Positions 17,977-40,840 of a DNA stretch of 64,000 nt are shown one piece after another (position 1 is the first letter of the stretch; the number at the start of each line of letters is the position of its first letter). The stretch comes from Actinopolyspora xinjiangensis (lineage in GTDB: Bacteria > Actinomycetota > Actinomycetes > Mycobacteriales > Pseudonocardiaceae). The stretch is taken from NCBI RefSeq assembly GCF_900104475.1, contig NZ_FNJR01000008.1, positions 124,001-188,000 of the forward strand. Reading direction: 5' to 3'. Below the pieces are notes generated by a model. The model searched no databases. It had not been told where the DNA came from and saw only the letters and a program-made list of their open reading frames with translations. The position numbers and the translations under genes were made by a program.

Positions 17977-17997
17977 GCTTGACATTTCAACACGAAA

Positions 17998-19710: not shown

Positions 19711-19836
19711 CAAATTCCCGCCCGCGGTTTCGGGGCTGTCCCGTGCCAGTCGCGGAGCGGGACGTCCGCCCTCGGTCGCCGGCCGGTCGCCCCGCTCCTC
19801 AGCCCCTTCACGCCGACGCCCCGCCCGGTGCGGCGA

Positions 19837-19856
19837 GGCCCGGAAGTGCCCGGGCC
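19837..19856. terminator. Short terminator between convergent genes
   Basis: GGCCCGG (19837-19843) and CCGGGCC (19850-19856) form a 7-bp stem just below the acyl-CoA oxidase stop codon, between convergent genes. Confidence 0.45.
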
Positions 19857-19858
19857 GC

Positions 19859-21823: not shown

Positions 21824-22166
21824 ACGTCCTCCAGCTCGTCCGGCTACCGCCCTCCGGGTTCCCCGTGGCGGGAGTGCCGAACCAGTCTGGCGCTTCCGGA
21901 GGCGCTGAGCGCGGCGACCCCGAGCTCCCGCCACCCGGCGGTCCCCGTGTCGCCGCCGACGAGCGTTCCGGGCCGCCCGCCGTTCGAGCCCGGTTCCCCG
22001 GCTCGGGCGCGGCGCGTCGAGGTTCCGGGGCCGCCCGAGGCAGCGGCCCAACGGCACACGACGCCCGGTCCGCAGCGGCAGCGGCAACGGCGGAGGTGAG
22101 GCTCGCTCGGCGATTTCCGGTCGTTTGTCGATCCCCCGGATCGGTTGATCAGGACCGTTGAGCGGC
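21824..22166. other. Intergenic region without a recognised gene
   Basis: About 340 bp of very GC-rich DNA between the acyl-CoA oxidase start and the terminator of the RTX-repeat gene. It should hold the oxidase promoter. I see no conserved frame, repeat or RNA. Confidence 0.35.
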
Positions 22167-22201
22167 GAGCGCGGGCCGGGGCGTCGCCTCGGCCCGCGCT
22201 C
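22167..22201 (-). terminator. Terminator of the RTX-repeat gene
   Basis: GAGCGCGGGCCG (22167-22178) pairs perfectly with CGGCCCGCGCTC (22190-22201), a 12-bp stem with an 11-nt loop, 25 bp beyond the stop codon. Confidence 0.75.
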
Positions 22202-22226
22202 CTGGACGACACGACGAACTCAGGCG

Positions 22227-22724
22227 TCAGCCCCTGCCGTAGTAGGGGATCTCGCAGTTGACGACCTCGTCGTCGAGGTCGGCGTTGTACCGGTCGACAC
22301 CGGGGCCGCAGTCGATGACGTCGGCCTCGTCGTCGGAGCCGAGCTCGTCGGACATCACGATGTCGTCGCCGGGACCGGCGTAGAGGTAGTCCTCACCAGG
22401 TCCACCGTGCAGGAAGTCGTCACCGTTGCCACCCCGGATGACGTCATTGCCGGAGTTGCCGAAGAGGCTGTCGTGGGCGGCCTTGCCGAAGATGACGTCG
22501 AAACCGCCACGCCCCTTGATCACGTCCTCACCAGACGTGCCGTGCAGCCCGTCCGGACCGGCGGTTCCCTCCACGTGGTTCTGCTCGTCCGCAGCCGTCG
22601 AGAGGGTAGGCTGGTCCTGGGCAGGCGCGGCCGCGGCCAACGGCGCGCCGACCACCAGAGCAGCCGCGGCGATTCCGGTGCCAACCAGTCCGGTCAGGCC
22701 GGTTCTCGTGCGAGTGGTGCGCAA
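22227..22724 (-). CDS. Small secreted RTX-repeat calcium-binding protein
   Basis: A 165-residue exported protein. The N terminus has a clear Sec signal peptide (GLVGTGIAAAALVVG, cut near AAAA-PAQDQ). The mature chain is about eight tandem RTX nonapeptides of the GGxGxDxux type: GTAGPDGLH, GTSGEDVIK, GRGGFDVIF, GKAAHDSLF, GNSGNDVIR, GGNGDDFLH, GGPGEDYLY, AGPGDDIVM. Such repeats fold into a Ca2+-filled parallel beta roll. Two cysteines near the C terminus (IDCGPG and VNCEIP) may form a disulfide cap. The start is TTG 22724, chosen because AAAGGAGCG lies at ideal spacing and because it opens the signal peptide; no nearby ATG or GTG fits. There is no catalytic domain, so it is probably structural or adhesive. 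Confidence 0.85.
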   Translation of the reverse strand: MRTTRTRTGLTGLVGTGIAAAALVVGAPLAAAAPAQDQPTLSTAADEQNHVEGTAGPDGLHGTSGEDVIKGRGGFDVIFGKAAHDSLFGNSGNDVIRGGNGDDFLHGGPGEDYLYAGPGDDIVMSDELGSDDEADVIDCGPGVDRYNADLDDEVVNCEIPYYGRG

Positions 22725-22743
22725 AGCGGTTCGCTCCTTTCGG

Positions 22744-22786
22744 CCGTGCGATCGGCTCTCCGCTAGCCCCGGGACCGATCGCACGG
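22744..22786 (-). promoter_or_regulatory. Long hairpin in the RTX gene leader
   Basis: Perfect 12-bp arms, CCGTGCGATCGG (22744-22755) and CCGATCGCACGG (22775-22786), with a 19-nt loop, end a few bases before the Shine-Dalgarno of the TTG-started RTX gene. It could be an RNA switch, an mRNA-stabilising stem or a protein-binding palindrome. The rest of the 390-bp region up to the helicase gene shows no other clear element. Confidence 0.5.
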
Positions 22787-23111
22787 TTCGTCGCTTTCCG
22801 TATTTCACCCCCGGTGACGCACAAGATCCGGAGCGGGTTGAGTCGAGATCGAAAAAAGTTCGCGAACCGGCGCGCTCGACCTCCACCACCCCGCACGAGT
22901 GACACACGAGCGACACCGGCCGTAACCACATCCCCCTCGATCGGGCAGGCAACGGTTCAACGACGATTCCTCGAACGCGGCCCCGATGTCGGACCACCGT
23001 GATAGGAACCCCGCGGAAGGTAATGGCCTCACTACGCTGGGGTCTCGCCTCGTCCGGACACATCTCTCGGGACGACGGCGACGGGGTCGTTTCGGAACAG
23101 GACTGACAGGC

Positions 23112-26100
23112 ATGGACGTCTTCGGGGTTCGTGAGAAACTCATCCAGGACTACCGCCAGTACACATCGAGTTTCGTGAACCCGCGGGACCGGCGACTCAA
23201 CGAGCACGTCACGCGCCGCATGGACTCGGGGGAGCAGTGGCCCGACCCGTGGCTGTCGTTGAACCCGAACTTCGCGCACGGTGGTTCGATCTCCGATCTG
23301 GTGCGCGACGGCACGCTGCATCCGGAGTGCGCGAACATCTTCCGGATCAAGAACTCCGTCGACGATCCGGGCGAGCGGGAGCTGCGGCTGCACCAGCACC
23401 AGCTGGACGCCATCCGAACCGCGGCCGAGGGGGACAGTTACGTACTCACCACCGGAACCGGCTCCGGCAAGAGCCTCGGCTACATAATCCCGGTGGTCGA
23501 CCGGGTGCTGCGGATGCGCGACAACGAGGGCGCCAGGAGCGGCATCAAGGCGATCGTGGTCTACCCGATGAACGCGCTGGTCAACAGCCAGCGCGAGGAG
23601 CTGGCGAAGTTCCTCAAGCACGGCTACCCGGAGAACGGGGAGCCGGTCACTTTCGAGCAGTACACCGGTCAGAACTCCGACGAAGAGCGCCGCAGGGTCT
23701 TCGAGAACCCGCCGGACATTCTGCTCACCAACTACATGATGTTGGAGCTGCTGCTCACCCGCCCCAACGAGCGGAAGCATCTCACCCAGGCCGCGCGGGG
23801 GCTACGCTTCCTGGTGCTGGACGAGCTGCACACCTACCGGGGCAGGCAGGGCGCCGACGTCGCGTTGCTGACCCGCAGGCTGCGGGACTCCTGCTCGGCC
23901 GAGAACCTGCAGTGCGTGGGCACCTCGGCGACCATGTCCACCGAAGAGGACCACCAGCGGCAGCGCGCGGACGTGGCCGAGGTCGCTTCCCGGCTGTTCA
24001 GCACGGACATTTCTCCCGAACGGATCATCACCGAGACGCTGCGGCGCGCCACGCGCGAGACGAATCCGGAACGCTTGGAGCTGCGCGCGCGGGTGGCGAA
24101 CTCGTTACTCCCCGCGGCGAACTACGAGTCGGTGGTCAACGACCCGCTCGTGGGCTGGCTGGAGTCCTTCTTCGGCGTGGAAGAGGAGTGGGGCACGAAG
24201 CGCCTGACGCGCCGGGATCCGCGGACGGTCACCGAAGCCGTCTCCCGCCTGGCCAAGGACACCGGTCTCGACGAGGAAAGCTGCGGGCGGGCCATTCGGG
24301 ACACGCTGGAGCAGGTCACCCGAGTGCGTGATCCGGAAACCGGGCGTCCCGCCTTCGCCTTCCGGATCCACCAGTTCCTGTCCAAAGGCGACAACGTCTA
24401 CGTCAGCATCGAATCTCCCGAGCAGCGCTACATCACCAGCCGTTACCAGCAGGTGGTTCCGGAGGCTCCCGATAAGGCGCTGGTGTCGCTGGCGTTCTGC
24501 CGCGAGTGCGGCCAGGAATACCTGAGCGTCGCCAGGGAGAAGGACGACGACGGCACCGTCCGGTACCGGAGCAGGCAGCACAACGACGCAGGCGGCGGGG
24601 ACGCGGCCAGCGGCTACCTCTTCATCACCGATGATCCGGAACACACCTGGCCGGAGACCCGCGACCGGGTGCTCGCCGACAGCAGGGTGCCGGATTCCTG
24701 GCTGACCACCTCCGCGGACGGCGTCCCCACGCTGATCAGCAGCCGCGAGAAGTACCTGCCGCACAGCGTGCACGTGGATGTCGACGGCACCGAGACCACG
24801 CGGGACCAGGGGTTGCGCGCCGCCTACGTGCCCAGCCCGTTCCAGTTCTGCCTGCGCTGCAAGGTCACCTACGAGCAGACCCGCAACCAGGACTTCGCCA
24901 AGCTGGCCACGTTGAGCGCGGAGGGGCGCAGCTCGGCGATGTCGGTGGTCAGTTCCAGCGTGGTGCGCAGCCTGCGGCAGGTCGACGACCCCGAGTTCCG
25001 CGAAGAGTCGCGCAAGCTGCTGACCTTCGTGGACAATCGGCAGGACGCCAGCCTGCAGGCCGGCCACCTCAACGATTTCGCCCAGGTCACCCAGCTGCGT
25101 GCTGCGCTGTACCGCGCGCTGGTCGAGGCCGAGGACGGCGTGATCACCTACGACGAGGTCGCCCACCGGGTCAGCGAAACCCTGGGGGTGGAGCTGTCGG
25201 ACTTCGCCGAGGATCCGCAGGCCCCGCCCAAGCTGCGCCAGAAGGCCTGGGGCGCCCTGCGCGCGGTGCTCGAGTACCGGTTGTATCTGGATCTGGAGCG
25301 CGGCTGGCGGGTGACCATGCCGAATCTGGAGCAGACCGGGCTGCTGCGCGTCGACTACGACGGGGTGGACGAGCTGGCCGCGCAGGAGGAACGCTGGAGC
25401 GATTGCCATCCGGCGCTGCGGGAGGACACCCCGGAGCACCGCGCGTCGCTGTGCCGGATCCTGCTGGACGAGTTGCGTCGCGTGCTGGCGGTGGATGCTC
25501 CTCCGCTCACCGAGCAGGGCTTCGAGAAGATCAAACGGCTCAGCGACCAGAACCTGTCCGACCCGTGGGCGCTTTCCGAGAACGAGAACCCTCCGGTCGT
25601 CGGCACCGCCTACCCCGGTCCCAGCGCCCGGAGGAACAAGCGGGAGGAGCTGTACCTGTCCGGCCGCGGCGCGTTCGGCCGCTTCCTCCGCAGGGACAAT
25701 CAGTTCCCCGGGCTGGCGGAGCGGTTGGACGTGGACGGTGCGCAGCGGGTCATCGAGGACCTGCTGGAACAGCTGCACAACGCCGGTGTGCTCCTGCAGG
25801 CGGTCTCCCCGAAGGAGTCGGGGGTGCCGGGGTACCGGTTGAAGTCGGGCAGGATCCTCTGGCAGCTGGGCGACGGGCACAGCGGGGCGAGCGATCCGCT
25901 GCGCCGGAACACCCGGGACGGTCGGGGCCCGCGGGTCAACCCGTTCTTCCGGGATCTCTACAGCGGCGAGTCCGCCACCTTCGAGGGCCTGCGGGCCCGG
26001 GAGCACACCGCCCAGGTGCCCGCGGATCTCCGCGAGGAGCGCGAGAAGGAGTTCCGCAGCGGCAAGCTGCAGCTGCTGTACTGCTCGCCGACCATGGAGC

Positions 26101-28328
26101 TGGGCATCGACATCGCCAGCCTCAACGCGGTGGGCATGCGCAACGTTCCGCCGACCCCGGCGAACTACGCCCAGCGCAGTGGTCGTGCCGGACGTTCGGG
26201 CCAGCCCGCGCTGGTGGTGACCTACTGCGCCCCGGGCAACGCGCACGACCAGTACTACTTCCGGAACAGCAAGCAGATGGTGGCGGGCTCGGTCGCCCCG
26301 CCCCGGCTGGACCTCACCAACGAGGAGCTGCTGCGTTCCCACGTACACGCCATCTGGCTCGCCGAGACCGGGCAGGGGATGCAGGGCTCGCTCGGGGGGT
26401 TGCTGGATCTCGACGGCGACGAGCCCTCGCTGGAGCTACTCGACGAGGTGCGCTCGACTATCTCGGACGGCGGGGCGCAGCGACGGGCCGTGGCCCAGGC
26501 CCAGCGGCTGGTCGCGGATCTGCTGCCTCAGCTACGCACCACCTCGTGGTGGCACGACAACTGGATCCAGCAGGTGGTGCGGGATGCCCCGCGCAATTTC
26601 GACCGGGCCTGCGACCGGTGGCGTGACCTGTACCGTTCGGCGCTGCACGAGCGGGCGAAGCAGCACGAGATCGTCGGGGACCAGTCGGCGAACAAGAAGA
26701 AGCGCAACAACGCCGCCTCGCGGCGGCGGGACGCGGAGACCCAGCTACGGCTGCTGCTCAACGAGGAGGGCGACGCCGGGCAGAGCGACTTCTCCCCGTA
26801 CCGCTACCTCGCATCCGAGGGGTTCCTGCCGGGGTATTCCTTCCCGCGGTTGCCGCTGGCGGCCTACATCCCGGGCAGGCACGGCGCGAGCACCGGCGGC
26901 GAGTACCTCCAGCGTCCGCGCTTCCTCGCGGTCCGCGAGTTCGGCCCGGGTGCGCTCATATACCACGAGGGCGCGCGCTACCAGGTGACCAGTGTGCAAA
27001 CCCCGCCGACCAGCGCGGGCAGCAACGCCCTGGACACCAGGCAGGCCCGCTTCTGCGGAGGCTGCGGCTACCTGCACGAGCGCGATGTCGGCACGGACGT
27101 CTGCGACGCCTGCGGAAGGCAGCTCGGGGCGGTCACTTCGGGGCTGCTGCGGTTGCAGACCGTCTACACCCGCAGGCGGGAGCGCATCTCCTCCGACGAG
27201 GAGGAGCGCAGGCGCGCCGGTTTCGAGCTGCACACTTCGTACCGCTTCAACGAGCACGGTGGCCAGCCCGGTCGCATCGACGCCGTCGCGGGCATCGGGA
27301 ACGAGCGGGCGCTGGAACTGTCCTACGGGGACACGGCCACGGTCCGGGTGACCAACTACGGCCGGGCGCGGCGCAAGGACCGCAGCGACACCGGGTACTG
27401 GCTGGACCCGGTCACCGGCAAGTGGTTGTCCGACAGCAAGAAGGCCGAGCGAACTCCCGACGAGAACGAGCTGTCCTCCACCGACGACGCCGTGACCAGG
27501 CAGAAGGTCATCCCCTACGTGGAGGATCACCGCAACATCCTGGTGCTGCGGCTGCCCGTCGAGGTGCGGCGCAAGACCGCCACCAGCCTGATGGTGGCCC
27601 TGGAACGCGGCATCGAGCGAACGTTCCAGCTGGAGGACTCGGAGTTGGATGCCGAGTTGCTGCCGGACGACGAGCACCGGGGGCGTGCGCTGCTGGTGGA
27701 AAGCGCCGAGGGCGGCGCCGGGGTGCTGCGGCGGCTGGTGGACGAGCCGAACGCGTTGTCCAGGGTCGCCGAGACGGCGCTGAAGCTGATGCACTTCGAC
27801 CCGGAGACCGGGGCGGATCTGGGCACTTCCGAGTACTTCCCGGAGGCCTGCGAGCTGGCCTGCTACGACTGCCTGCTGTCCTACTCCAACCAGGGAGTGC
27901 ACAGCGACATCGACCGCCACGCGATCCGGGACCAGCTGCGCAAGCTGCGCGCCGCGTGGGTGACGCGCGGGTCCGGGGGACGCGACCGCACCGAGCAGCT
28001 GCGTCGGCTCGTGGAGGCCTGCGACAGCGAGCTGGAACGGGAGTTCCTGCACTGGCTGGATCAGCGGGAGCTGCGGGTGCCGGACGAGGCACAGCCCCTG
28101 GTGGAGGCGGCCGAGACCCGACCGGATTTCGTCTACCATCTGTCCAGCGGCAGCGTCGCGGTCTTCGTGGACGGCCCGGTGCACGACAACGGGCGTACCG
28201 CCGAGCGGGACGAGGAAGCCGAGGAACGCCTGTTCGACCTGGGCTGGCACGTCGTGCGGGTGCGCCACGACGAGGACTGGGCCGAGACGGTGCGGCGCCA
28301 TCCGAGCGTGTTCGGCGAGCACCGGTAG
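23112..28328 (+). CDS. Large DEAD/DEAH-box helicase with DUF1998 and C-terminal nuclease-like domain (DruE-like)
   Basis: A 1738-residue superfamily-2 helicase, first gene of the island operon. Motifs: Walker A TGTGSGKS (114-121), DELH (237-240), GTSAT (270-274), and motif [10 protein letters not shown] from 1021. A zinc ribbon follows (C1315xxC1318...C1331xxC1334), then a DUF1998 region with [14 protein letters not shown] and the cysteine cluster C1580-C1584-C1587. The final 70 residues read PDFVY...VFVDGPVHD...[14 protein letters not shown], with Asp1672, Asp1687 and His1691 placed as in Vsr/DUF559-type nuclease folds. Size and layout fit DruE, the signature Druantia protein, and partly a DrmA/DrmB fusion from DISARM. 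ATG 23112 gives the family-like N terminus [11 protein letters not shown] predicted DNA translocase or restriction subunit in defence; not proven. Confidence 0.85.
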
Positions 28329-28404
28329 TGCCGCCGCGACCGCGTTCCGAAACTTCCGCACGGGGTGGGTCGACCCGTGCGGGCAGATCGACAGGAGGAA
28401 TCGC

Positions 28405-31245
28405 GTGACCACGACCTTCGATGCGGGCTCGCTCGTGTCCGCGCGGGGCCGCGAGTGGGTGGTGCTGCCGGAGTCCGAGCCGGACTTCCTGGTGCTGCGC
28501 CCGCTGGGAGGTTCGGACACCGACCGCACGGCGGTGCTTCCCGAGCTGGAGACGGTCGAGCCCGCCAGTTTCCCGTACCCCACGCCGGAGGAGGCCGGGG
28601 ACGCGGCCAGCGCGGGGCTGCTGCGCACCGCCTTGCGCGCCGGGTTCCACTCGACGGCCGGGCCGTTGCGTTCGCTGGCTTCGCTGGCGGTGGAACCGCG
28701 GCCCTACCAGCTGGTTCCGCTGTTGATGGCGCTGCGCCAGGAGGTCACTCGGCTGCTGATCGCCGATGATGTGGGTATCGGCAAAACGGTCGAGGCCGGG
28801 ATGATCGCCGCCGAGCTATTGGCCCAGGGCGAGGCACGCGGGGTGGCGGTGCTGTGCAGTCCGGCGCTGGCGGAGCAGTGGCAGCGCGAGCTGCACGAGA
28901 AGATGGGCATCGAGGCGGAGCTGGTGCTGCCCAGCACGGTCACCCGGCTGGAACGCGGTCTGCTGACCACCGAATCGCTGTTCGGCAAGTACCCGAACGT
29001 GGTGGTGTCCACCGATTTCGTCAAGTCCCAGCGCCGCAGGGACGAGTTCGTGCGTTCCTGCCCGGATCTGGTGATCGTCGACGAGGCGCACACCTGCGTG
29101 ACCGATGACGGCCAGGGCAACACCGGCACCACCCAGCGCTACGAGCTGGTGCGAGGGCTGGCGGCGGACAGCTCGCGGCATCTGGTGCTGGCCACGGCCA
29201 CCCCGCACAGCGGCAAGGAGGAGCGGTTTCGCAACCTGATCGGGCTGCTGGATCCGGAGCTGGCCGAGCTCGATCTGGAGTCACCGGAGAACCGGGAGCG
29301 GCTGGCTCGGTATTTCGTACAGCGCCGCCGTGGTGACATCCGCCGTTTCCTGGACGAGGAGACCCCGTTCCCCAGCGATCGGCAGTCCAGGGAGGAGCCC
29401 TACTCGCTGACCGGGGAGTACCGCGCGCTGTTCGACCGGGTGTTGGATTACGCCCGCGAGGTGGTACACGACAGCGGTTCCGGGAACGTGCGGCAGCGGG
29501 TGCGGTACTGGTCGGCGCTGGCGCTGCTGCGTGCCCTGGCCTCTTCGCCGCGGGCCGCCGCGGCCACGCTGCGCACCAGGGCTCGCAACGCCGACGCGAA
29601 CACCCCGGACGAGGCGGATGCGCTGGGGCGCACGGCCGTGCTGGACGTGGCCCACGAGGACGCGGGGCTGGAGGCCGCCGACATCACGCCCGGTGCCGAC
29701 GACACCGACGAGTCCGATGATCCCCACCGGCGGCGGCTGCTGGACATGGCCCGCACGGCCGAGAAGCTCCAGGGACCCGAACGGGACAGCAAGCTCGCTG
29801 CGGTGCTGAGCACGGTGCGTTCGCTGCTCGCCGAGGGCTACACCCCCATCGTGTTCTGCCGGTTCATCGACACCGCCGAGTACGTGGCCGAGTATCTCGC
29901 CCCGCTGCTTCCGGCCAAGACGGACGTGCGCTGCGTGACCGGCACGCTGCCTCCGGAGGAGCGTGAGGCGCGGGTGGAGCGGCTGGCGCACGGTGAGCAC
30001 CGTCCGGTGCTGATCGCCACCGACTGCCTCTCGGAGGGCGTGAACCTGCAGGAGGTGTTCGACGCGGTGGTGCACTACGACCTCGCGTGGAACCCCACCC
30101 GCCACGAGCAGCGCGAGGGCCGAGTGGACCGGTTCGGCCAGCGCCGCGACGTGGTGCGCGCGGTCACCTTGTACGGCAGCGACAACGGTGTCGACGGGGT
30201 GGTGCTGGACGTGCTGATCCGCAAGCACGAGCGCATCCGCAAGGCGCTGGGGGTGTCCGTCCCGGTTCCGGACGGCACCGACCAGGTGGTGGAGGCGCTG
30301 CTGGAGGGTGTGCTGCTGCGGCGGGGCGATCCGGAGCAGCTCACGCTGGAGGGCATCGCCGAGGACAGCCGCGCCGGGCTGAACCAGCGGTGGGACAGCG
30401 CGGTCGAGCAGGAACGCCAGTCCCCCACCAAGTACGCCCAACGCACCATCCGTCCGGAGGAAGTCTCCCGCGAGCTCGCCGAGATCCGCGCCGGGCTGGG
30501 CGACCGCGGGGAAGTGCGGCGGCTGGTGTGGCGGTCGCTGCGGGAGCTCGATTCGAGCGTGACCGACACCGCCGACGGGTTCACCGCCACCACCGGACCG
30601 CTGCCGGTGGGGCTGCGTGAGAACCTGTCCCGCGGGCGTCGCGAACCGCTGGTTTTCCACGAGGACGTGCCGATCCCCCCGGGTGACGCACACCTGGATC
30701 GCACCGATCCGAACGTGGCCGCCATCGCCCGTTACGTGCTGGATTCCGCGCTCGATCCGCTGCTGGCAGCGGACAAGCGGCCCGCGAGCCGCTGCGGAGT
30801 GCAGCGCACCCGTGCCGTGGCCAAGCGGACCACCATGCTGCTGACGCGGTTCCGGTTCCATCTCACCCTGCCGGGCAGGGACGGGCCGCGTCCGCTGGTG
30901 GCCGAGGACGCGCAGGTGCTGGCTTTCCGGGGTCGCCCGGACGAGCCCGAGTGGCTCACCGAGCAGGAGGTCTCCGAGCTGCTCGCGGCCGAGCCCAGCG
31001 GCAACATCCCGCCGGATCAGGCCAGGGAGTTCCTGCGCCGCTCGTTGGACGGGCTTCCGGGGCTGGAACCCACCCTGGACGAGAAGGCCGACGAGCTCGC
31101 CGCGCGGCTGCGTGAGTCGCACCTGCGGGTACGCGAGGCCGCGGGCAGGCGGGTGCGCCGCCAGGTCACCGTCACCGCCCACAAACCCGCCGATGTGCTC
31201 GGCGTTTACGTCTACCTCCCGGATACGTCAGGAGGCGCCCAGTGA
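28405..31245 (+). CDS. SNF2-type DNA helicase (DrmD/BrxHII-like)
   Basis: A 946-residue HepA/RapA-like SNF2 helicase. The N-terminal 100 residues form a small beta-rich domain ([14 protein letters not shown]). The ATPase core has [12 protein letters not shown] (Lys127), DEAH (226-229) and LATATPHSG. The second lobe has [12 protein letters not shown] and [11 protein letters not shown] (from 569), and about 330 further residues form a charged C-terminal region. The closest characterised types are DrmD of class 1 DISARM and BrxHII of type 3 BREX, which also sit beside a large adenine methylase. AGGAGGAATCGC precedes GTG 28405, 76 bp after the helicase. Its TGA overlaps the methylase GTG (GTGA), so the two are translationally coupled. 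Confidence 0.88.
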
Positions 31246-34200
31246 GTTCGCCCTCGTTCACTTCCGTACGCGTCGCGGGCGGGCTGCTACCCGCCGATCT
31301 GTTCGGCCGGATGGTCGAGGGGACCGATCTTCCCGGCGTCGACCCGACCGACTACCACCTGCTGCCGGGCGAGTCGGTGCGCCGGGACGCCTCCCGCAAG
31401 TGGGAGTACCTCACCGGCGTCTGGTCCGCGTTCAAGGCCGAGCTGGACCGCGCGGGGGAGAACGCGCCGACCACCGGCATCACCAGGGAGCGCTGGCTGC
31501 TGGTGCTGCTGCGCGAGTTGGAGTTCGGCAGGGTGCCCAGTACCCCCAGCGGCGGGTTGACCGTGGGCGAGCGCGCGTTCCCGGTCAGCCACAGCTGGGA
31601 GAACGTGCCGCTGCATCTGCTCGGCTGGGGGGTGGATCTGGACCGCCGCACCAAAGGCCAGGCGGGTGCGGCCGCTTCCGCTCCGCAGTCGATGGTGCAG
31701 GAGCTGTTGAACGCCTCGGACGAGCACCTGTGGGCGGTGTTGTCCAACGGTCGGCGGCTGCGGCTGCTGCGGGACTCCACTTCGCTGGTCGGCTCCGCCT
31801 ACGTGGAGTTCGATCTGGAGGCCATGTTCGACGGTGAGCTGTTCAGCGATTTCGTGCTGCTTTACCTGCTGGTTCACCAGTCCCGCTTCGAGGTGCGCGA
31901 CGCGGCTGTCGGCCCGGCGTCCTGCTGGCTGGAGCGTTGGCGCGAGCTCGCCGAGGAGCAGGGCAGCCGGGTGCGTGAGCGGCTGCGCGAGGGCGTGGAG
32001 CACGCTCTGGAGACGTTGGGGACCGGACTGCTGCGCCATCCGGACAACAGGTTGCTGCGTTCCAAGCTGGCTTCCGGCGAGCTCTCCCGAATGAGCTACA
32101 ACCACGCACTGCTGCGGCTGGCCTACCGGATGCTGTTCTGGTTCGTCGCCGAGGACCGCGGTGCGCTGCTGGATCCCGATGCCGATACGACCGTGCGGCA
32201 GCGCTATCAGGAGTTCTTCTCCTCGGCACGGCTGCGCGAGCTGGCCCGCAGGCGGCGCGGCGATCGGCACGGGGATCGTTGGCAGCAGGTGCGGCTGGTC
32301 TTCGACGGGTTGGGGCGCGAGGGCGGCAGGCCCGAACTGGGGTTGTACGGCCTGGGTGGGCTGTTCGATCTCGACGGCAACGACGAGCCGATCGAGGGTT
32401 CGGCCGCCGTAGGCGGCGCGGCCGGGTTGCCGCGCGCCGCGCTGGCCAATGAGGACCTGTTGGCGGTGGTTCGTTCGCTGTCGCTGTTCCAGGATCGGGA
32501 CGGCGATGTCCGCAGGATGGTGGATTTCCGCAATCTGGGGGCCGAGGAGTTGGGCAGCGTCTACGAGTCGCTGCTGGAGCTGCATCCGCAGCACGATCCG
32601 GCGGACAACACGTTCACGCTGGAGGCCGCCGCCGGTAACGAACGCAAGACCACCGGTTCCTACTACACGCCGGACGCGCTGATCCAGCGGCTGCTGGACA
32701 GCACGTTGGATCCGGTGCTGGACGAGGCGCAGCAGGCGGCCGACCCGGCTGAGGCGCTGTTGAACGTGACGGTGTGCGATCCGGCTTGTGGTTCGGGGCA
32801 CTTCCTGGTGGCGGCAGCGCGGCGGATCGCCAAGCGACTGGCGGCGGTGGAAAGCGAGGAGGACGAACCTTCGCCGGACGTGGTGCGGCGGGCGCTGCGC
32901 CGGGTGGTGGCCCGGTGCATCCACGGGGTGGACGTGAATCCGATGGCCGCCGAGTTGGCCAAGGTGGCGTTGTGGCTGGCGGCGATGGAGCCGGGCAAGC
33001 CGCTGTCGTTCCTGGACGCCAACATCCGGGTGGGCAACTCGCTGTTGGGAACCACGCCGAGGTTGCTGGCCGAGGGGGTGCCCAACGCGGCGTTCAAGGC
33101 GCTGGACGGCGATGACAAGCAGATCGTCAAGAATCTGCTGAATCAGAACAAGAAGGACCACTCGGGGCACGTCGATCTGTTCAGCAGCGGTGTGCCGCTG
33201 CGCAACACCGAGCTGGCACGGGAGACCTCGCGGGTCACCTCGGCGGTGCCGGACGAGCTCGGGCAGGTGCGCGAGCAGCGGCGGCGGCTGGAGAACCTGG
33301 AAAAGCGGCACCGCGAGCGGGACAAGCTGCCCGCCGACGCCTGGTGTGCCGCGTTCGTGCAGCACAAGACCTCCGAAACCTGGGATCGAGTGGTCACCCA
33401 GGGAAAGCTGCAAGGGCTCGGCGAACAGGAGCAGAACCTGCTCACTTCGGCCACCGCCGAGGAGGTGCGGCGGCTGGCCGCCGAGTACGGCTTCTTCCAC
33501 TGGCATCTGGAGTTCCCGCACATCTTCCGCGTGCCGGAGCGGGAGGCCCCGGACAATCCGGAGACCGGCTGGAGCGGCGGCTTCTCCTGCGTGCTGGGCA
33601 ATCCGCCGTGGGATCGGGTGAAGCTGCAGGAGCAGGAGTTCTTCGCGCCGCGTGACGCGGAGATCGCCAAGGCCCCGAACGCCAATCAGCGCAAGAAGCT
33701 CATCGACGCGCTGGCCGAGAGCTCCGAGCTCGCCGATCGCAAGCTCCACGAGGAGTATCTCGCCGCGTGTCGCCGCGCGGACGGTACGAGCCGGTTGTTG
33801 CGCGATTCCGGGCGCTATCCGCTGACCGGGCGCGGGGACGTGAACACCTACCAGGTGTTCGCGGAGAACGACCGGACGATCATCTCGGGGCGGGGGCGTA
33901 CCGGGGTGGTGCTGCCCACCGGGATCGCCACCGATGCCACCACCCAGTACTTCTTCCGGGATCTGGTGGAAAGCGCCGGCATCGCCTCGCTGTACGACTT
34001 CGAGAATCGCAACAAGCTCTTCGCCGATGTGGACAGCCGATTCAAGTTCTGCCTGCTGACGATGAGCGGGCGGCAGGTGCGGGAGGAGGCCGCGGACTTC
34101 GCCTTCTTCGCCCACGAGGTGGCGGATCTGGACAAGCCGGATGTGCGGTTCGCGCTGAAGCCGGACGAGATCACGCTGCTGAATCCGAACACGGGCACGC

Positions 34201-35276
34201 TGCCGGTGTTCCGCTCCCGCAGGGACGCCGAGATCACCCTGGGCATCTACAAGCGGGTTCCGGTGCTGGTCGACGAGAACTCCCCGGAGGGCAACCCCTG
34301 GGGGGTGTCGTTCTCGACCATGTTCCACATGTCCAACGACTCGCACCTGTTCCACACCCGCGAGGAGCTGGAAGCCGACGGTTGGCAGCTCGACGGCAAC
34401 GTCTTCGTGCGCGGCGAAGACCGGATGCTGCCGCTCTACGAAGCCAAGATGATCCACCACTACGACCACCGCTGGGCGACCTACGAGGGTGATTCGACGC
34501 GCGACGTGGAGCTCGCGGAGAAGCGGGATCCCGAGTTCGCTCCCATGCCGCGTTACTGGGTGGCCCGCCAGGAGGTGGACAAGCGTCTGGCTGGCAAGTG
34601 GGACCGCGGCTGGCTCCTCGGCTGGCGCGACATCTGCCGCAGTACCGACGAACGGACCACCATCGCTACCTCTTTCCCACTGAGAGCGGTGGGAAACAAC
34701 CTTCCCATCATGCTCGCAAACCAGGAAGACGCTCGCACTATTGCTTGCCTGCAAGCAAACTTAACCGCGTTTGCACTGGACTATCCGGCTAGACTTAAAG
34801 TCGGAGGAACACACCTCAACTATTTTGTGTACCAGCAACTCCCTGTACTTCCTCCGTCTGACTACCACGAATATTCGCCTTGGAATCAGAAGACGGACGT
34901 GTGCTCCTGGGTGAGTAGAAACGTCCTCGAACTCACCTACACCGCCTGGGACATGGCGCCGTTCGCCGCGGACCTGGGTGATGAGGGCCCGCCGTTCCGG
35001 TGGGACGAGCAGCGGCGCGAACTGCTGCGTGCCGAGCTGGACGCGGCGTACTTCCACCTGTACGGCGTCGAGCGGGACGATGTGGACTACATCATGGAGA
35101 CCTTTCCGATCGTGCGCCGCAAGGACGAGCAGGCCCACGGCGAGTTCCGCACCAAGCGGTTGATCCTGGAGATCTACGACGCGATGGCCGAGGCCATCCG
35201 AACCGGCGAGCCCTACGAGACCGTGCTGGACCCACCGCCGGGTCGGGGCCCGCGCCACCCGGCCCGCGCCCACTGA
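31242..35276 (+). CDS. Large N6-adenine DNA methyltransferase (PglX/DrmMI/Eco57I-like)
   Basis: A 1344-residue class I methyltransferase. After about 450 N-terminal residues of unknown fold come SYYTPDALIQRLL, SAM-binding motif I DPACGSGHF (513-521) and the catalytic NPPW (787-790), the N6-adenine signature. The C-terminal half should contain target recognition. I see no nuclease motif, so it is methylase-only, as in BREX (PglX) and DISARM class 1 (DrmMI), where host methylation marks self DNA. The start GTG 31242 overlaps the SNF2 stop and follows GGAGG. A segment at about 34670-34910 is much richer in A/T and uses rarer codons than the rest of the gene, suggesting a recombined patch. A shared terminator follows. 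Confidence 0.88.
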   Translation: MSSPSFTSVRVAGGLLPADLFGRMVEGTDLPGVDPTDYHLLPGESVRRDASRKWEYLTGVWSAFKAELDRAGENAPTTGITRERWLLVLLRELEFGRVPSTPSGGLTVGERAFPVSHSWENVPLHLLGWGVDLDRRTKGQAGAAASAPQSMVQELLNASDEHLWAVLSNGRRLRLLRDSTSLVGSAYVEFDLEAMFDGELFSDFVLLYLLVHQSRFEVRDAAVGPASCWLERWRELAEEQGSRVRERLREGVEHALETLGTGLLRHPDNRLLRSKLASGELSRMSYNHALLRLAYRMLFWFVAEDRGALLDPDADTTVRQRYQEFFSSARLRELARRRRGDRHGDRWQQVRLVFDGLGREGGRPELGLYGLGGLFDLDGNDEPIEGSAAVGGAAGLPRAALANEDLLAVVRSLSLFQDRDGDVRRMVDFRNLGAEELGSVYESLLELHPQHDPADNTFTLEAAAGNERKTTGSYYTPDALIQRLLDSTLDPVLDEAQQAADPAEALLNVTVCDPACGSGHFLVAAARRIAKRLAAVESEEDEPSPDVVRRALRRVVARCIHGVDVNPMAAELAKVALWLAAMEPGKPLSFLDANIRVGNSLLGTTPRLLAEGVPNAAFKALDGDDKQIVKNLLNQNKKDHSGHVDLFSSGVPLRNTELARETSRVTSAVPDELGQVREQRRRLENLEKRHRERDKLPADAWCAAFVQHKTSETWDRVVTQGKLQGLGEQEQNLLTSATAEEVRRLAAEYGFFHWHLEFPHIFRVPEREAPDNPETGWSGGFSCVLGNPPWDRVKLQEQEFFAPRDAEIAKAPNANQRKKLIDALAESSELADRKLHEEYLAACRRADGTSRLLRDSGRYPLTGRGDVNTYQVFAENDRTIISGRGRTGVVLPTGIATDATTQYFFRDLVESAGIASLYDFENRNKLFADVDSRFKFCLLTMSGRQVREEAADFAFFAHEVADLDKPDVRFALKPDEITLLNPNTGTLPVFRSRRDAEITLGIYKRVPVLVDENSPEGNPWGVSFSTMFHMSNDSHLFHTREELEADGWQLDGNVFVRGEDRMLPLYEAKMIHHYDHRWATYEGDSTRDVELAEKRDPEFAPMPRYWVARQEVDKRLAGKWDRGWLLGWRDICRSTDERTTIATSFPLRAVGNNLPIMLANQEDARTIACLQANLTAFALDYPARLKVGGTHLNYFVYQQLPVLPPSDYHEYSPWNQKTDVCSWVSRNVLELTYTAWDMAPFAADLGDEGPPFRWDEQRRELLRAELDAAYFHLYGVERDDVDYIMETFPIVRRKDEQAHGEFRTKRLILEIYDAMAEAIRTGEPYETVLDPPPGRGPRHPARAH

Positions 35277-35316
35277 GCCGCCACGGCCGCCGTGCCCCGC
35301 ACGAGCCGCCCGGACG

Positions 35317-35363
35317 AACCGGGACGGCCCCCGGATTTCCCTCCGGATCGGGCCGTCCCGGTT
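35317..35363. terminator. Strong bidirectional terminator at the island's convergent junction
   Basis: AACCGGGACGGCCC (35317-35330) and GGGCCGTCCCGGTT (35350-35363) form a perfect 14-bp stem. The loop contains a further CCGGA/TCCGG pairing. It lies between the convergent methylase and DUF262 genes. Confidence 0.8.
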
Positions 35364-35445
35364 CTGCCCGCGACCGGAACCACCGCATCGGGTGAGCTTC
35401 GGGAATCAGCCGAGCGGACCGGCCCGCGCATTCTTCAGACACCGC

Positions 35446-37320
35446 TCAGGGCCGGTAGTCCTCCAGGCGGGCCGGATCCCAGATTCGATCGACCAGGGCC
35501 CGGACCAGCTTGCTCCGCTCCTCGTGCTCGGCCTTGCCGAACCGTTCGTAAGGCCGGAACGGCAGGCCGGACCGCTCCACGAAGGAGTTGAACCGGGGCT
35601 GATGCTGGTAGGCCGCGCTGGTCAGGCTCGCCGCGTAGAGGTTCTGCTTCGCGTAGTGCGGCGCCTTCCGCTCGAACGGCTTGTCCTGGTAGCTGCGGTT
35701 CACATCGGCGGGCAGCAGCACCAGACCTGCGACATGGTTACGCCACAGGTCGAAGTCCTCGCGAGTCGGGAACTCCTCGGCGTAGAGCTCGTAGTCGTCG
35801 GGCCAGATGTGCTCGATGTCCCACGGGTTCCTCAGGTTCCGGTCCACCAGTTCGGCGAAGCGGTCGGGCTTCCCCGCCTCCCGCTCGGTGTAGGCAGTCA
35901 ACCGGGCCAGCAGGTGGTAGATGTAGCGCTTGCTGAACTGGTTCAGCCCGAGTCCCGCGATGCCGTGCCGGTAGCGGCTCGAACTCCCGTCGAACGACAC
36001 GTCGGCCTCGTCCTGATCCAGCTTCGAACGCAGGGTGTCGATCAGCTCCGGCAACGACATACCCCGGATGTCGCGGCACAGCAACCACATGGCGTAGTTA
36101 ACGCTCGAATAATTGATCCGGATGTAGTTGGCGGCACGGCGCATCACCCAGATGTCGAGGTAGGTCGCGGTCGCCGCGAGCTTGCGGCGCACGGTCTCGT
36201 CGTCGTCACCGACCCGCAGCGGTGCGAGGAGGACGGTGTTCTGCCAGGTGAACTCGTTGTGCGCGTTGTAGAACACCGGCTCGAGGCCGGGGGTGTAGTC
36301 GCGCGAGGCCTCCAACACCTTCCGGTAAGCCCGTGCGAAGAACGGCATATCGCTGGTCATCAGGGCTAGGTTGCGCTTCGCGTCGCCTATGCCGACGCGG
36401 TCGGTGTTGTCCCGGACCCAGCGGTGGAACGTGGAGCCGATCAGTTCCCAGTCGCGGTCGATGGCACCCGCACGACGCTCCCGGATCGACTCGGCGTACT
36501 TGGCACGCAGCCACGCCTTGACGAAGGTGGCGTCGCGTTCGGCGTCGGGATCGGGTTCCCAGGAAGTCAGGTCCAGCAGAGTCCTCTTCCAGACGCGGTT
36601 CGCGTTCGCCCGCTCGTCCGCGTCCTCCACCGCCCCCAGCAGATACGCCTTCAGCATGTCCACCGGGCTCAGTGGTTTCCCCCGGTCGTTCATAGTCTCG
36701 AAGATCGAGTACGCGTGCGCGTCGGTCTCGGTCACGATCTCGATCAGGCCGACATTGCCGATCAGCCAGTAGACGAACGGTTCCAGTCCGTCACCGAGCT
36801 CGCCCGCCGGATCGATCGACACGAGGTCGTTGTACCGGGCGACGATCGTCTGGATCGACTCGTCCTTGCCCTCGGCGTCGTAGTCCTCACCCTCGAACAA
36901 CGCCTTGAGCACCGGAACGCGCTCGGCGATGTCGAGGTTGAACTTCGGTTCGCCGTAGTCGTCGGAGAAGATCAACGGCTCCACCGTGGAAGTCACCCTG
37001 AGACCGCGCTCCTGTGCCTGCCGGTACAGGTGGATGAGCAGCAACGTCAGGGACGTGACCCGCTGCTGGCCATCGACCAGGTAGCTCTTGTTGCCGCGCT
37101 TGGTCACGATGATCGAACCGAGGAAGTAGTCGCCGTAACCACTGGCGTCCCGCGGTGTGTCGCCGGTGCGGTAGAACGTCGAGAACCTGTTCTGCAGATC
37201 GCTCACCAGTTCTTCGAGGTTCTCCCGATCCCACTTGTACTCCCGCTGGTACTCGTCGATCGCGAAGGAACGGGACTGCAGCAGCTCTCTGATCGTGCGG
37301 TAGTGCGGCGTGATGCTCAT
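35446..37320 (-). CDS. DUF262-DUF1524 protein (GmrSD-like, predicted type IV restriction)
   Basis: A 624-residue fusion. The N-terminal DUF262 domain begins with FAIDEYQREYKW and carries the hallmark DGQQR (83-87) of ParB/Srx-fold NTPases. The C-terminal DUF1524 domain is an HNH-type nuclease with WDIEHIWPDD (His504), then LWRNHVAGLVLLP and NRSYQDKPFERK, supplying the His, Asn and Lys of the motif. GmrSD uses this pairing to cleave glucosylated hydroxymethylcytosine DNA, while BrxU and SspE use it beside BREX or phosphorothioate systems. Convergence on the helicase-methylase operon suggests a supplementary nuclease that attacks modified phage DNA; this is inference. GAGGGAG precedes the ATG. 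Confidence 0.88.
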   Translation of the reverse strand: MSITPHYRTIRELLQSRSFAIDEYQREYKWDRENLEELVSDLQNRFSTFYRTGDTPRDASGYGDYFLGSIIVTKRGNKSYLVDGQQRVTSLTLLLIHLYRQAQERGLRVTSTVEPLIFSDDYGEPKFNLDIAERVPVLKALFEGEDYDAEGKDESIQTIVARYNDLVSIDPAGELGDGLEPFVYWLIGNVGLIEIVTETDAHAYSIFETMNDRGKPLSPVDMLKAYLLGAVEDADERANANRVWKRTLLDLTSWEPDPDAERDATFVKAWLRAKYAESIRERRAGAIDRDWELIGSTFHRWVRDNTDRVGIGDAKRNLALMTSDMPFFARAYRKVLEASRDYTPGLEPVFYNAHNEFTWQNTVLLAPLRVGDDDETVRRKLAATATYLDIWVMRRAANYIRINYSSVNYAMWLLCRDIRGMSLPELIDTLRSKLDQDEADVSFDGSSSRYRHGIAGLGLNQFSKRYIYHLLARLTAYTEREAGKPDRFAELVDRNLRNPWDIEHIWPDDYELYAEEFPTREDFDLWRNHVAGLVLLPADVNRSYQDKPFERKAPHYAKQNLYAASLTSAAYQHQPRFNSFVERSGLPFRPYERFGKAEHEERSKLVRALVDRIWDPARLEDYRP

Positions 37321-37658
37321 GCTTCTCCCTCGTCGGCAGGCAGGCGCGTCGTCCGGTCGGCGGCCGCTGCGTCGTGATCCTCTTCGCCGCCTCGGCCCTC
37401 GCGACGGGGAGTCGCGGGACTTTCCGTCTCAGCGGGGGGACGACCTCGATCGGACTTCGGGAAACCAACGTCGTTCGAAAGTATCAGCGACCCGACCACA
37501 CGGGCGGCGCTCCGGGACGATCCCGCCACACTCCCGACACCACCGAGTACGACACCGCCGACCGACGCCCAACCTCCGGCGGCGAACCGGAAACCGCGAG
37601 ATACCCGACCCCACGAACCTTGGCGTCCCGTACGGCCGCACCCCACCGCGCACGAGAA

Positions 37659-37695
37659 CGGCCCCGGCCCCGCCGAAACGGCGGAACCGGGGCCG
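37659..37695 (-). terminator. leuS terminator
   Basis: CGGCCCCGG (37659-37667) and CCGGGGCCG (37687-37695) flank an inner CGCCG-AAA-CGGCG stem. It sits about 90 bp after the leuS stop in the 464-bp gap before the DUF262 gene; I see no gene in that gap, which should also hold the DUF262 promoter. Confidence 0.65.
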
Positions 37696-37784
37696 CACGC
37701 GCTCTCACCGGTCCACAGCGGACTCACCCCGCCCGCGCGACCGGACACCGGAACCGGATCTCAACCGGCCAATCAGCCGAACGG

Positions 37785-40697
37785 TCAGCCGACCACGTTG
37801 ACCAGCCGCCCGGGGACGACGATCACCTTGCGCGGCTCCGCACCGCCCAGCAGTTCGACGACCCTGCTGTCGGCCAGCGCGGCGGCTCGGATCTCGTCCT
37901 GCTCCGCGGTCGCCGATACGGTCATCCTGGAGCGCACCTTGCCGTTGAACTGGATCGGGTACTCGATCGTGTCATCGACCAGGTACTGCTCGTCCGCCTC
38001 CGGGAACGGTCCGTGCACCAGACTCCGCTCGTGCCCCAGCCGGTACCACAGCTCCTCGGCCAGGTGCGGGGTCAGTGGAGCAACCAGCAGCACCATCGGC
38101 TCCATCACCGCGCGCGGCGGACCGGCCGCGCCCGAGTAGGTCTTGGTCACCCGGTTGTTGAGCTCGATCAGCTTGGCCACGGCGGTGTTGAACTGCAACC
38201 CGTCGTAGTCCTCACGGACCCCGGCGATGGTCTTGTGCAGCGCACGCAGCATCTCGACGTCGGGCTCCTCCTCGGTGACCCGCGACAGCCCGGTCCACTC
38301 GTCGACGACGTTGCGCCACAGCCGCTGCAGGAACCGGTGCGAGCCGACCACGTCCTTGGTGGCCCACGGCCGGGAGGCGTCCAACGGACCCATGGACATC
38401 TCGTAGAGCCGCAGCGTGTCCACGCCGTAGGCGTCGGCCATCTCCTCGGGAGACACCGAGTTCTTCAGGCTCTTGCCCATCTTGCCGTACTCGCGGTTGA
38501 CCTCCTCGTCGCCGTGGAAGTACCTGCCGTCCCGCTCGACGACCTCCTCGGCGGGCACGTAGACCCCGCGCGAGTCGGTGTAGGCATAGGCCTGGATGTA
38601 GCCCTGGTTGTACAACCGCCGGTACGGCTCCTCGGCCGAGACGTACCCCAGGTCGTAGAGCACCTTCTGCCAGAACCGGGCGTAGAGCAGGTGCAGCACG
38701 GCGTGCTCCACCCCGCCGACGTAGAGGTCCAGGCCACCCGGATCGTTCGCGCCGTGCCGGTCGGGGCGCGGCCCCATCCAGTACCGCTCGTTCTCCGGAT
38801 CGACGAACCGCTCCTCGTTGTCCGGGTCGATGTAGCGCAGCTGGTACCAGCACGAACCGGCCCACTGGGGCATCACGTTGGTGTCGCGGTGGTAGTGCTT
38901 GAGCCCGTCGCCGAGGTCGAGCTCCACCTCGGCCCAGTCGGTGGCCTTGGACAGCGGCGGCTCGGGCCTGCTGTCCGCGTCGTCGGGGTCGTAGGTGCGC
39001 GGGGAGTACTCGGCCACCTCCGGCAGCTCCACCGGCAGCTGGTCCTCCGGCAGTCCCAGGGGGGTTCCGTCGGTGTCGTAGACGATCGGGAACGGCTCGC
39101 CCCAGTAGCGCTGCCGCGCGAACAGCCAGTCGCGCAGCTTGTACTGCACGCTTCCCTTGCCGTGGCCGTGCTGCTCCAGCCAGGAGACGACCTTGCGCTT
39201 GGCGTCGTCGACGGAGAGGCCGTCGAGGCTCAGCCCCGTGGTCTCCGAGGAGGAGTTGATCGCGGGGCCGTCGCCGGTGTATGCCTCGCCGTCGAAATCG
39301 GCGGGGGGCTCGACGGTGCGCACGATGGGCAGCCCGAACTCGGTGGCGAACTCCCAGTCCCGCTGGTCCTGGGCGGGAACGGCCATGATCGCGCCGGTCC
39401 CGTAGCTCAGCAGCACGTAGTCGGCGGTGAACACCGGGACGCGCTCACCGTTGACCGGGTTGACCGCGTGCAGACCGGTGAACACGCCGGTCTTGTCCTT
39501 GTTCTCCTGCCGGTCCAGTTCGGACTTCGCCGCGGCGAACCGCCGGTACTCGGCGACCGCCTCGGCCGGACCCGAGTACCCGCCGGTCCAGCGCGGGTCG
39601 GTTCCGGACTGCCACTCGCCGAATCCCTCGGGGGCCGCGAGGATCTCGTCGACCAGCGGGTGCTCCGGAGCGAGCACCATGTAGGTGGCACCGAACAGGG
39701 TGTCCGGCCTGGTGGTGAACACCTCGACCGTCTCGTCCCGGCCCTCCAGCGCGAAGCGCACGTCGGCGCCCTGGGAACGGCCGATCCAGTTGCGCTGCAT
39801 GGTCTTGACCTTGTCCGGCCATTCCAGCCGGTCCAGATCGTCGACCAGCCGGTCGGCGTAGGCGGTGATCCGCATCATCCACTGCTTGAGGTTGCGGCGG
39901 AACACCGGGAAGTCGCCGCGCTCGCTGAGCCCCTCGGCGGTGACCTCCTCGTTGGCGACCACGGTGCCCAGGCCGGGGCACCAGTTCACCGGCGCCTCGG
40001 AGAGGTAGGCCAGCCGGTAGGAGTCGATGATCTCGCGCTGTCGCTGCCGGGTGAGCTCCTCCCACGGGGTGCCCTCCGGCGTGGCGCGCTCACCGGAGGC
40101 GAACTCCGCTTCGAGCTCGCTGATCGGGCGAGCACGCCCCCTGCCCTGATCGGCTTCGGTGTCGTACCAGGCGTGGAAGATCCGCAGGAAGATCCACTGC
40201 GTCCACTTGTAGAACTCGACGTCGGTGGTGGCGACCCGGCGGCGCTCGTCGTGGCCGAGCCCGAGCCTGCGGATCTGCGTCAGGTAGCGCTCGATGTTGT
40301 TCTCGGTGGTGGTCCGGGGGTGCGTACCGGTCTGCACCGCGTACTGCTCGGCGGGGAGCCCGAAGGCGTCGAACCCCATGGTGTGCAGCACGTTGCGCCC
40401 CAGCATCCGGTGGTAGCGCGCGTAGACGTCACTGCCGATGAAACCGAGGGGGTGCCCCACGTGCAGTCCGGCCCCCGAGGGGTAGGGGAACATGTCCTGC
40501 ACGAACAGCTTCTCGGACGCGGCGTCCTCCCCGCGCAACGGCCCCACCGGGTTGGCGGCGTGGTAGCTGCCGAGCTCCTCCCAGCGCCGCTGCCAGGTGC
40601 GCTCGATCTCCCCCGCGATGCCCGCGGTGTACCGGAACGGGGGCGTGTCGTCGCCCGCACCGTCCGTGCCCTGTGAGTTCCGTTCCGCGCCACTCAT
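37785..40697 (-). CDS. leuS: Leucyl-tRNA synthetase
   Basis: A 970-residue class I aminoacyl-tRNA synthetase that charges tRNA-Leu. It has the HIGH-type motif in [15 protein letters not shown], the CP1 editing domain ([21 protein letters not shown]) with its conserved threonine-rich and GTGAIMAVP loops, the leucine-specific segment, and KMGKSLKNS as KMSKS motif. The C-terminal anticodon-binding region ends [11 protein letters not shown]...[13 protein letters not shown]. The start at ATG 40697 follows AAGGAA; the open frame extends far upstream through the leader region but without coding character. A leader ORF and terminator hairpin upstream on the same strand indicate attenuation control. 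Essential housekeeping gene. Confidence 0.96.
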
Positions 40698-40782
40698 CGT
40701 GTGCGTTTCCTTCCCTAGTCCGTCGCCGGCGAATCGCCGGGTAACGCTCCGGGCGACCCGTCGGTGTGCCGCCCCGGAAACT

Positions 40783-40817
40783 AAAAACCCCTCATCCCTG
40801 ACCGGGCATGAGGGGTT
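40783..40817 (-). terminator. Attenuator-type terminator in the leuS leader
   Basis: On the minus strand AACCCCTCAT and ATGAGGGGTT form a perfect 10-bp stem (arms 40808-40817 and 40786-40795) followed directly by TTT, giving a five-base T-run. No minus-strand gene lies upstream that it could terminate, since the neighbour is divergent, so it acts on the leuS leader transcript. It ends about 85 nt before the leuS start. Confidence 0.7.
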
Positions 40818-40840
40818 GCCGCGCCGAGGATCGACTCGCC

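Follow-up and report, generated by a model that had tools for sequence, protein, structure and literature searches.

The operon and its neighbour

We analysed a stretch of 64,000 nucleotides from Actinopolyspora xinjiangensis (contig NZ_FNJR01000008.1 of NCBI RefSeq assembly GCF_900104475.1, positions 124,001 to 188,000; hereafter the window), which holds an operon of three long genes between 23112 and 35276 and, converging on it from about 170 bp away, a fourth gene with the DUF262 and DUF1524 domains of GmrSD proteins (Table 1). An earlier note on this DNA had read the four genes as one composite anti-phage system of a distinct type. The comparisons presented here suggest that the operon is very probably an ARMADA Type I anti-phage system. 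That such an operon shares one hot spot, between the genes for acyl-CoA oxidase and leucyl-tRNA synthetase (leuS), with an independent GmrSD restriction gene is likewise highly likely. Overall, the interpretation offered in the note is partly supported.

Its description of the locus was confirmed by open reading frames (ORFs), Pfam domains and codon-position guanine-plus-cytosine (GC) content. All four frames translate as described, a gap of 76 bp separates the YprA-family helicase gene from the SNF2 helicase gene, and the methylase gene overlaps the latter by 4 bases. Codon-position GC backs the coding status of all four genes and the Pfam domains of all four proteins score above their cut-offs; PADLOC and NCBIfam also back these calls, and with them the DruE-like, DrmD-like, PglX-like and GmrSD-like assignments made in the note. 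The YprA open frame begins at 22986 (1780 amino acids, aa) and alignments with relatives begin near residue 43; the ATG at 23112 yields the protein of 1738 aa. The flanks consist of chromosomal housekeeping genes, with acyl-CoA oxidase on the left and leucyl-tRNA synthetase, AlgH and PcnA on the right.

Table 1. Coordinates, in the window, of the genes, domains and shared block discussed in the text.
Feature	Coordinates	Strand	Remarks
YprA-family helicase, assigned here to ARMADA Type I (equivalent of E. coli ArmC)	23112..28328	+	1738 aa; Pfam DEAD, Helicase_C, MZB (DUF1998)
Predicted Vsr/DUF559-like PD-(D/E)xK nuclease domain, C-terminal in the YprA protein	27969..28325	+	intact RPD...VDG..H motif
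BrxHII/DrmD-like SNF2-RapA helicase (ArmA equivalent)	28405..31245	+	946 aa; Pfam SNF2-rel_dom, Helicase_C
PglX-like N6-adenine DNA methylase (ArmB equivalent)	31242..35276	+	1344 aa; Pfam Eco57I, N6_Mtase
GmrSD (DUF262-DUF1524) Type IV restriction-like gene, stand-alone neighbour	35446..37320	-	624 aa; Pfam GmrSD_N, GmrSD_C
Block common to the window and congener G006: RTX-repeat-like gene and three ARMADA genes	22190..35395	+	blastn, 90-93% DNA identity
RTX-type calcium-binding repeat protein	22227..22787	-	divergent from the operon
Acyl-CoA oxidase	19859..22087	-	
Leucyl-tRNA synthetase	37785..41228	-	
Long ORF opposite acyl-CoA oxidase	19649..21772	+	
Long ORF opposite leucyl-tRNA synthetase	37374..40676	+	
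TnpB/OrfB beside a resolvase-type recombinase	16031..18003	-	Pfam OrfB_IS605, Cas12f1-like_TNB
EAL/GGDEF gene	14..1402		

Identity of the operon

Contrary to the earlier note, the operon represents no undescribed type: its definition has already been published as ARMADA Type I (PMC12458937; Bell et al., bioRxiv September 2025). In that preprint, Type I generally has the gene for a YprA-family helicase first, then a BrxHII-like and a PglX-like gene; the YprA protein includes DUF1998 and a nuclease of Vsr type that is called predicted active. Also placed in it are zinc-binding modules (between RecA1 and RecA2, and one in the OB region), a BrxA-like helical domain that follows RecA1, and a long coiled-coil finger lying between RecA2 and an OB fold. 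Type I is further described there as abundant in Actinomycetota and Pseudomonadota, and its gene order as reversed in many cyanobacteria. We assign the operon to ARMADA Type I because the gene order, the DUF1998/MZB helicase with its fused Vsr/DUF559-like end and the NPPW methylase all match. The note had named a fit to a known DISARM, BREX or Druantia subtype as grounds against novelty; none of these was found to fit, while another named system, ARMADA, does.

The YprA protein comprises a RecA1 domain (K120, D237), CxxC pairs at 463/466 and 580/583, a RecA2 domain, a CxxC..CxxC stretch at 1315-1334 and DUF1998/MZB, as read from the invariant columns of a seven-row alignment, with the motifs checked in 33 rows. 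C463/C466, C580/C583 and C1315/C1318..C1331/C1334 are kept in all 33 rows and fall in the regions to which the preprint assigns zinc-binding modules. MZB scores 30.8 bits (Pfam cut-off 24.2), and its cysteines 1580, 1584 and 1587 are invariant in both the seven and the 33 rows. The middle region gives weak Pfam matches alone, the most frequent being Zn_Ribbon_1, in 9 of the 33 members and with a best E of 0.038.

In the SNF2 helicase, which is 44-60% identical to its counterparts at six other loci, the Walker A lysine K127 and the Walker B aspartate D226 align to K136 and D236 of E. coli ArmA. The methylase carries the S-adenosylmethionine (SAM) motif DPACGSGHF (G517) and a catalytic NPPW (N787); of 67 ArmB relatives with scores of 700 bits or more, 66 have NPPW, and the single DrmMI of DISARM that we examined has NPPF. 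At all six positions mutated in E. coli ARMADA II, the window has the identical residue: K127 and D226 in ArmA, G517 and N787 in ArmB, and K120 and D237 in YprA. Our reference for that system was the plasmid of strain YZ3-11 (L167), in which the residues stand at exactly the preprint's numbers. According to PMC12458937, all four genes of E. coli ARMADA II are required, and defence is non-abortive, infected cells surviving. Protection also depends on the ATPase motifs in the two corresponding helicases and on NPPW in the methylase: five of the six mutations abolished it, and that of the SAM-motif glycine caused a partial loss.

The C-terminal 119 aa of YprA match DUF559 and REase_MTES_1575; the window taken alone stays below both cut-offs of Pfam, with 25.0 bits (38.2 needed) and 15.8 bits (20.6 needed), respectively. 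Among 25 members picked from the 33-row set (six of the eight omitted have a decayed motif), DUF559 and MTES_1575 are matched at E<=1 by all 25 and Vsr by 5, and a family profile weakly aligns the RPD motif with that of the Vsr structure 1cw0 (best E 0.06). As judged from these profiles, a fused Vsr/DUF559-like PD-(D/E)xK nuclease domain, its motif intact in the window, closes the YprA protein. On this point the reading in the earlier note is not supported: a nuclease, in predicted form, is not missing from the operon.

Recurrence, phylogeny and horizontal movement

The note had also proposed looking for the three-gene block in other genomes. We did so in 87 loci, consisting of seven plasmid loci and the best 80 of 562 confirmed relatives, a sample skewed to window-like, actinobacterial sequences. 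All three genes stand in window order on one strand in 68 of these loci. One locus, from Chroococcidiopsis, is reversed, which agrees with the preprint's statement on cyanobacteria, and 18 are incomplete, eight having the first gene alone and ten the first two; 15 of the 18 run off their contig. Across the window's taxonomic family, the second helicase (ArmA) is carried at E<=1e-100 by 35 of 297 genomes.

A 30-row YprA tree, made by a quick method with 14 rows from the best 80 and with long branches for the DISARM, repair-type and some Druantia rows, places the window in a 19-row clade of window-like loci (SH-aLRT 100), apart from the E. coli and Streptomyces ARMADA II, Druantia and DISARM rows. 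In a 12-row ArmA tree the window falls in a 7-row clade (100/100), apart from the ARMADA II, DISARM DrmD, Natrinema and Thermus rows. The corresponding 12-row ArmB tree has a 4-row clade at 99/99, nested in a 7-row clade at 92/94 only. One plasmid of Nocardioides JS614 carries, as separate sets, an ARMADA I operon and DISARM (drmD, methylase, drmA, drmB). On another plasmid, of Ca. Chlorohelix (L031, 19116-23608), two extra genes, encoding a 389-aa hypothetical protein and a four-helix-bundle protein, lie between ARMADA I genes.

The block shared with congener G006 offers a view of the operon's movement. Identity at fourfold-degenerate sites between the window and G006 is 0.87-0.90 in the three ARMADA genes, as opposed to 0.58-0.71 in the seven flanking genes compared (ACOX, LeuRS, AlgH, PcnA, MurJ, TrxB and Trx). 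Because this identity is higher in the block than in its flanks, the block most likely moved horizontally, having been exchanged more recently than the split between the two species. Within it, blastn gave no aligned piece at 34680-34924; the EAL/GGDEF gene at the left end of the window had no match in the compared G006 stretch.

The GmrSD gene and the hot spot

Both GmrSD domains lie in one protein, with Pfam scores of 116.5 bits for GmrSD_N (cut-off 33.2) and 38.6 bits for GmrSD_C (cut-off 23). The protein also carries DGQQR and an EHIWP..N stretch, which we take to be family motifs. Among ten genomes of the genus, the window's own (G000) included, the site between leuS and acyl-CoA oxidase holds both ARMADA and GmrSD in one (G000), ARMADA only in one (G006), a GmrSD orthologue only (91-93% identical) in three (G005, G008 and G009) and neither in five (G001, G002, G003, G004 and G007), none of these five having a GmrSD_N gene there. 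G005 and G009 have no ArmA match anywhere in the genome at E<=1e-100, and G008 carries a more distant ARMADA I (54% YprA identity) at another place.

Because congeners carry ARMADA and GmrSD at this site independently of one another, GmrSD is, on this comparison, a neighbour and not a component of ARMADA, the two being independent modules and separate cargo of one hot spot. The inclusion of GmrSD in the system, as the note had it, is not supported. Beside GmrSD in the G005 and G008 hot spot (L162, 6918-10609, and L164, 9124-12815) lie five open frames that correspond in size between the two genomes (271, 126, 184, 504 and 140 aa), of which those in G005 have no PADLOC match.

Proposed mechanism

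A detailed mechanism for ARMADA Type I may be put forward, to which we attach roughly even confidence. ArmB would mark the host by methylating adenines within a motif. By analogy with DruE and DISARM, the two helicases (SNF2/RapA and YprA) may form a DNA-surveillance complex that would load on foreign DNA without the mark or with exposed 3' single-stranded DNA (ssDNA). Such a complex would move along this DNA by translocation, and the Vsr-like domain of the YprA protein would cut it. DruE, a relative, is described in the part of PMC13192584 drawn on here as loading on 3' ssDNA and cleaving DNA.

Alternative readings

Several observations weigh against the reading of the locus set out above. 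The Type I label draws on the order of the genes, on their domains and on trees in which we ourselves named the ARMADA rows by gene order. Loci L035, L054 and L108 extend 6.3, 1.6 and 2.8 kb beyond the YprA gene, yet have no ArmA match. The reversed-order Natrinema and Thermus pair stands outside the 19-row YprA clade, though it is possibly Type I by the preprint's description, and the repair-type YprA row is placed, on a very long branch, among Druantia and ARMADA II rows. The best PADLOC model for the second gene is DpdE (PDLC02853), matched over its full length at 1055 bits; with the NCBIfam DpdE model, whose cut-off is 500, the gene scores 203.6, and a scan of 20 flanking proteins found no 7-deazaguanine gene. 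The BrxA-like insert expected of Type I was not recovered by hhalign with a nine-sequence BrxA profile, which gave E values of 0.14-0.21, no better than eight column shuffles. To these are added an excess of GmrSD genes near ARMADA and the loss of the nuclease motif in some of the sequences, each of which speaks for an alternative of its own.

The excess speaks for one composite four-gene system, in which the methylase would shield the host from GmrSD or both would act together, as does the convergence of the GmrSD gene on the operon at short range. In 5 of the 35 ARMADA genomes of the family (own included; for G215 and G272, with two ArmA matches each, one was used), ArmA has a GmrSD_N gene no more than 20 kb away, against 0.30 expected under random placement (simulated chance 1e-5 of at least five and 1.2e-4 of at least four). 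This is the sole result that favours the earlier note. The clustering of defence genes in shared islands would nevertheless explain such loose co-residence, and distance and side vary among the other near pairs. GmrSD was found near 1 of the 87 loci, weakly (39 bits), in an insensitive phmmer search with one query and many short flanks, and the congeners hold the operon without GmrSD (G006) and GmrSD without the operon at the same site. We therefore regard a four-gene system as very improbable.

Slightly less credible still is a divergent DISARM class 1 with DrmA and DrmB fused. The NCBIfam DrmD model scores 305.8 bits and PADLOC DrmMI 208.5 bits, and the ArmB tree alone speaks weakly against a DISARM placement. 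The DrmD cut-off of 610 bits is, however, not reached; no separate DrmB and no DrmC (PLD gene) were found among the genes scanned in the acyl-CoA oxidase-leuS interval; and the best PADLOC matches of the YprA protein are DruE models (361.5 bits, the match being in pieces), far above the DrmA models. The SNF2 helicase has 25% identity with DrmD of JS614 (338 aa aligned) and the methylase 30% with DrmMI of that strain (349 aa), whereas their identities with the ARMADA I counterparts carried by the JS614 plasmid are 60% and 49%. The presence of repair helicases among YprA homologues (PMC12458937) invites a further reading of the operon as a DNA-repair module around an MrfA/YprA helicase, not a defence system. 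We consider this the least credible of the three, given the patchy distribution in the family, presence on plasmids, the signal of horizontal transfer, the methylase partner and a separate 863-aa YprA-like helicase elsewhere in the genome.

A more serious alternative keeps the operon and changes its mode of action, such that phage DNA would be blocked or remodelled without cutting, as BREX is thought to do, with the Vsr-like domain as an optional add-on. At least one of the D, D/E and H residues of the nuclease motif is lost in 19 of 86 sequences, and 67, the window included, keep the motif. The loss requires at least ten changes on the tree, which was made with FastTree only and without the nuclease domain (L054 and L085 were dropped as truncated, leaving 86 of 88 rows). 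All 19 sequences keep the Walker A and DELH motifs of YprA, the NPPW of ArmB, and the GxGKT and DExH box of ArmA (DEVH in four). With 19 of 86 sequences lacking motif residues, cutting by that domain cannot be universal. The need for the methylase motif in ARMADA II points the same way: single-gene deletions were tested in that system, and methylase loss alone therefore does not appear to be lethal to the host, unlike in classical restriction-modification (PMC12458937). Against this, the window's own domain keeps its motif, as do most rows; the losses, 10 of 19 of them in Streptomyces, were read from an alignment and not from structures; and a nuclease elsewhere could compensate, though McrBC does not track with loss. 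That the fused nuclease is dispensable and repeatedly decayed, the core being a methylase-plus-helicase block of phage DNA without cutting and the window a nuclease-competent form, is a possibility that we hold tentatively, as the less likely course. No report of nuclease-motif decay in ARMADA Type I was found in a literature search in which PMC12458937 was the only ARMADA paper met. Since the motif has been lost repeatedly, the need for DNA cutting could be tested by comparing natural variants.

Of the 65 loci for which 8 kb or more of downstream sequence is available, 16 have McrB- and/or McrC-like genes after ArmB, both being present in 12 (L028, L037, L040, L047, L050, L051, L053, L061, L075, L078, L083 and L112); at L028, from Nocardioides JS614, ArmB and the McrB-like gene share 4 bases. 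A link with McrBC has already been reported (PMC11090510, PMC12458937). Replacement of the lost nuclease by McrBC was considered and rejected, with such genes at 7 of 24 decayed and 9 of 41 intact loci by a strict four-letter motif (Fisher p 0.56), and at 7 of 19 lost and 9 of 47 intact loci (window included) by a looser definition (independent pairs, median p 1).

Neighbouring genes

The small RTX-type repeat gene, divergent from the operon, lies within the block shared with G006 (about 90% identity). Pfam HemolysinCabind is matched on a longer ORF, a signal peptide is apparent by eye, and PADLOC gives no match. Comparison of the 1 kb upstream of the operon with 17 other loci by blastn gave nothing convincing past about 20 bases at the YprA start; tblastx pieces there were scattered and short, with disturbed order and mixed strands, and were not used as evidence. 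Long ORFs nearby, such as the two listed in Table 1, had no family matches in the Pfam, PADLOC and NCBIfam scans, the real genes opposite them being those for leucyl-tRNA synthetase and acyl-CoA oxidase. About 4 kb to the left of the shared block, a TnpB/OrfB gene stands beside a resolvase-type recombinase, a pair that presumably constitutes an IS607-type element.

Comparison with known systems

Membership of DISARM, Druantia, BREX or Dpd was rejected, the partner genes or gene layout that these systems require not having been found. Druantia and the window both have a YprA-family helicase, and the window lies outside the Druantia rows of the YprA tree; a scan of neighbouring genes found neither DruH nor any of DruA-D, the partners of DruE in Druantia. 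On contig C22 of the same genome (L176, 8303-13636, minus strand), a second YprA-family helicase with a strong DruE match (DruE1 639.6 bits, DruE3 615 bits) adjoins an MzaA-like gene. That locus is probably a Druantia-type island, and another GmrSD_N gene is situated about 39 kb away from it.

DISARM class 1 resembles the window in its SNF2 helicase and PglX-like methylase, relatives of DrmD and DrmMI, and differs in that helicase and DUF1998 are here joined in one protein in place of separate DrmA and DrmB; the substitution of a single DruE-like helicase for that pair, recognized in the earlier note, was borne out. The scan of genes lying between acyl-CoA oxidase and leuS revealed neither PglZ nor BrxC of BREX type 3. 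As for Dpd, PADLOC 2.0.0 may mislabel ARMADA I helicase genes as belonging to it. With the GmrSD/BrxU/SspE family, the fourth gene has both domains in common; it is a separate gene, occurring with or without ARMADA, and the main text of the ARMADA preprint (PMC12458937) has no occurrence of GmrSD, DUF262 or DUF1524.

ARMADA Type II shares with the window homologous ArmA, ArmB and ArmC proteins and the six mutated residues, at 24-28% identity across parts of ArmA and ArmB. Its genes run ArmA-ArmB-ArmC, followed by ArmD (GajB-like with a RelE-like domain), whereas here the YprA gene comes first, ArmD is not present and the genes next after ArmB are GmrSD and LeuRS. From ARMADA Type I no difference is apparent in the operon sequence: the two agree in gene order, in the three protein families, in the Vsr-like domain at the C-terminus of the DUF1998/MZB helicase, in the CxxC motifs and in their actinobacterial host.

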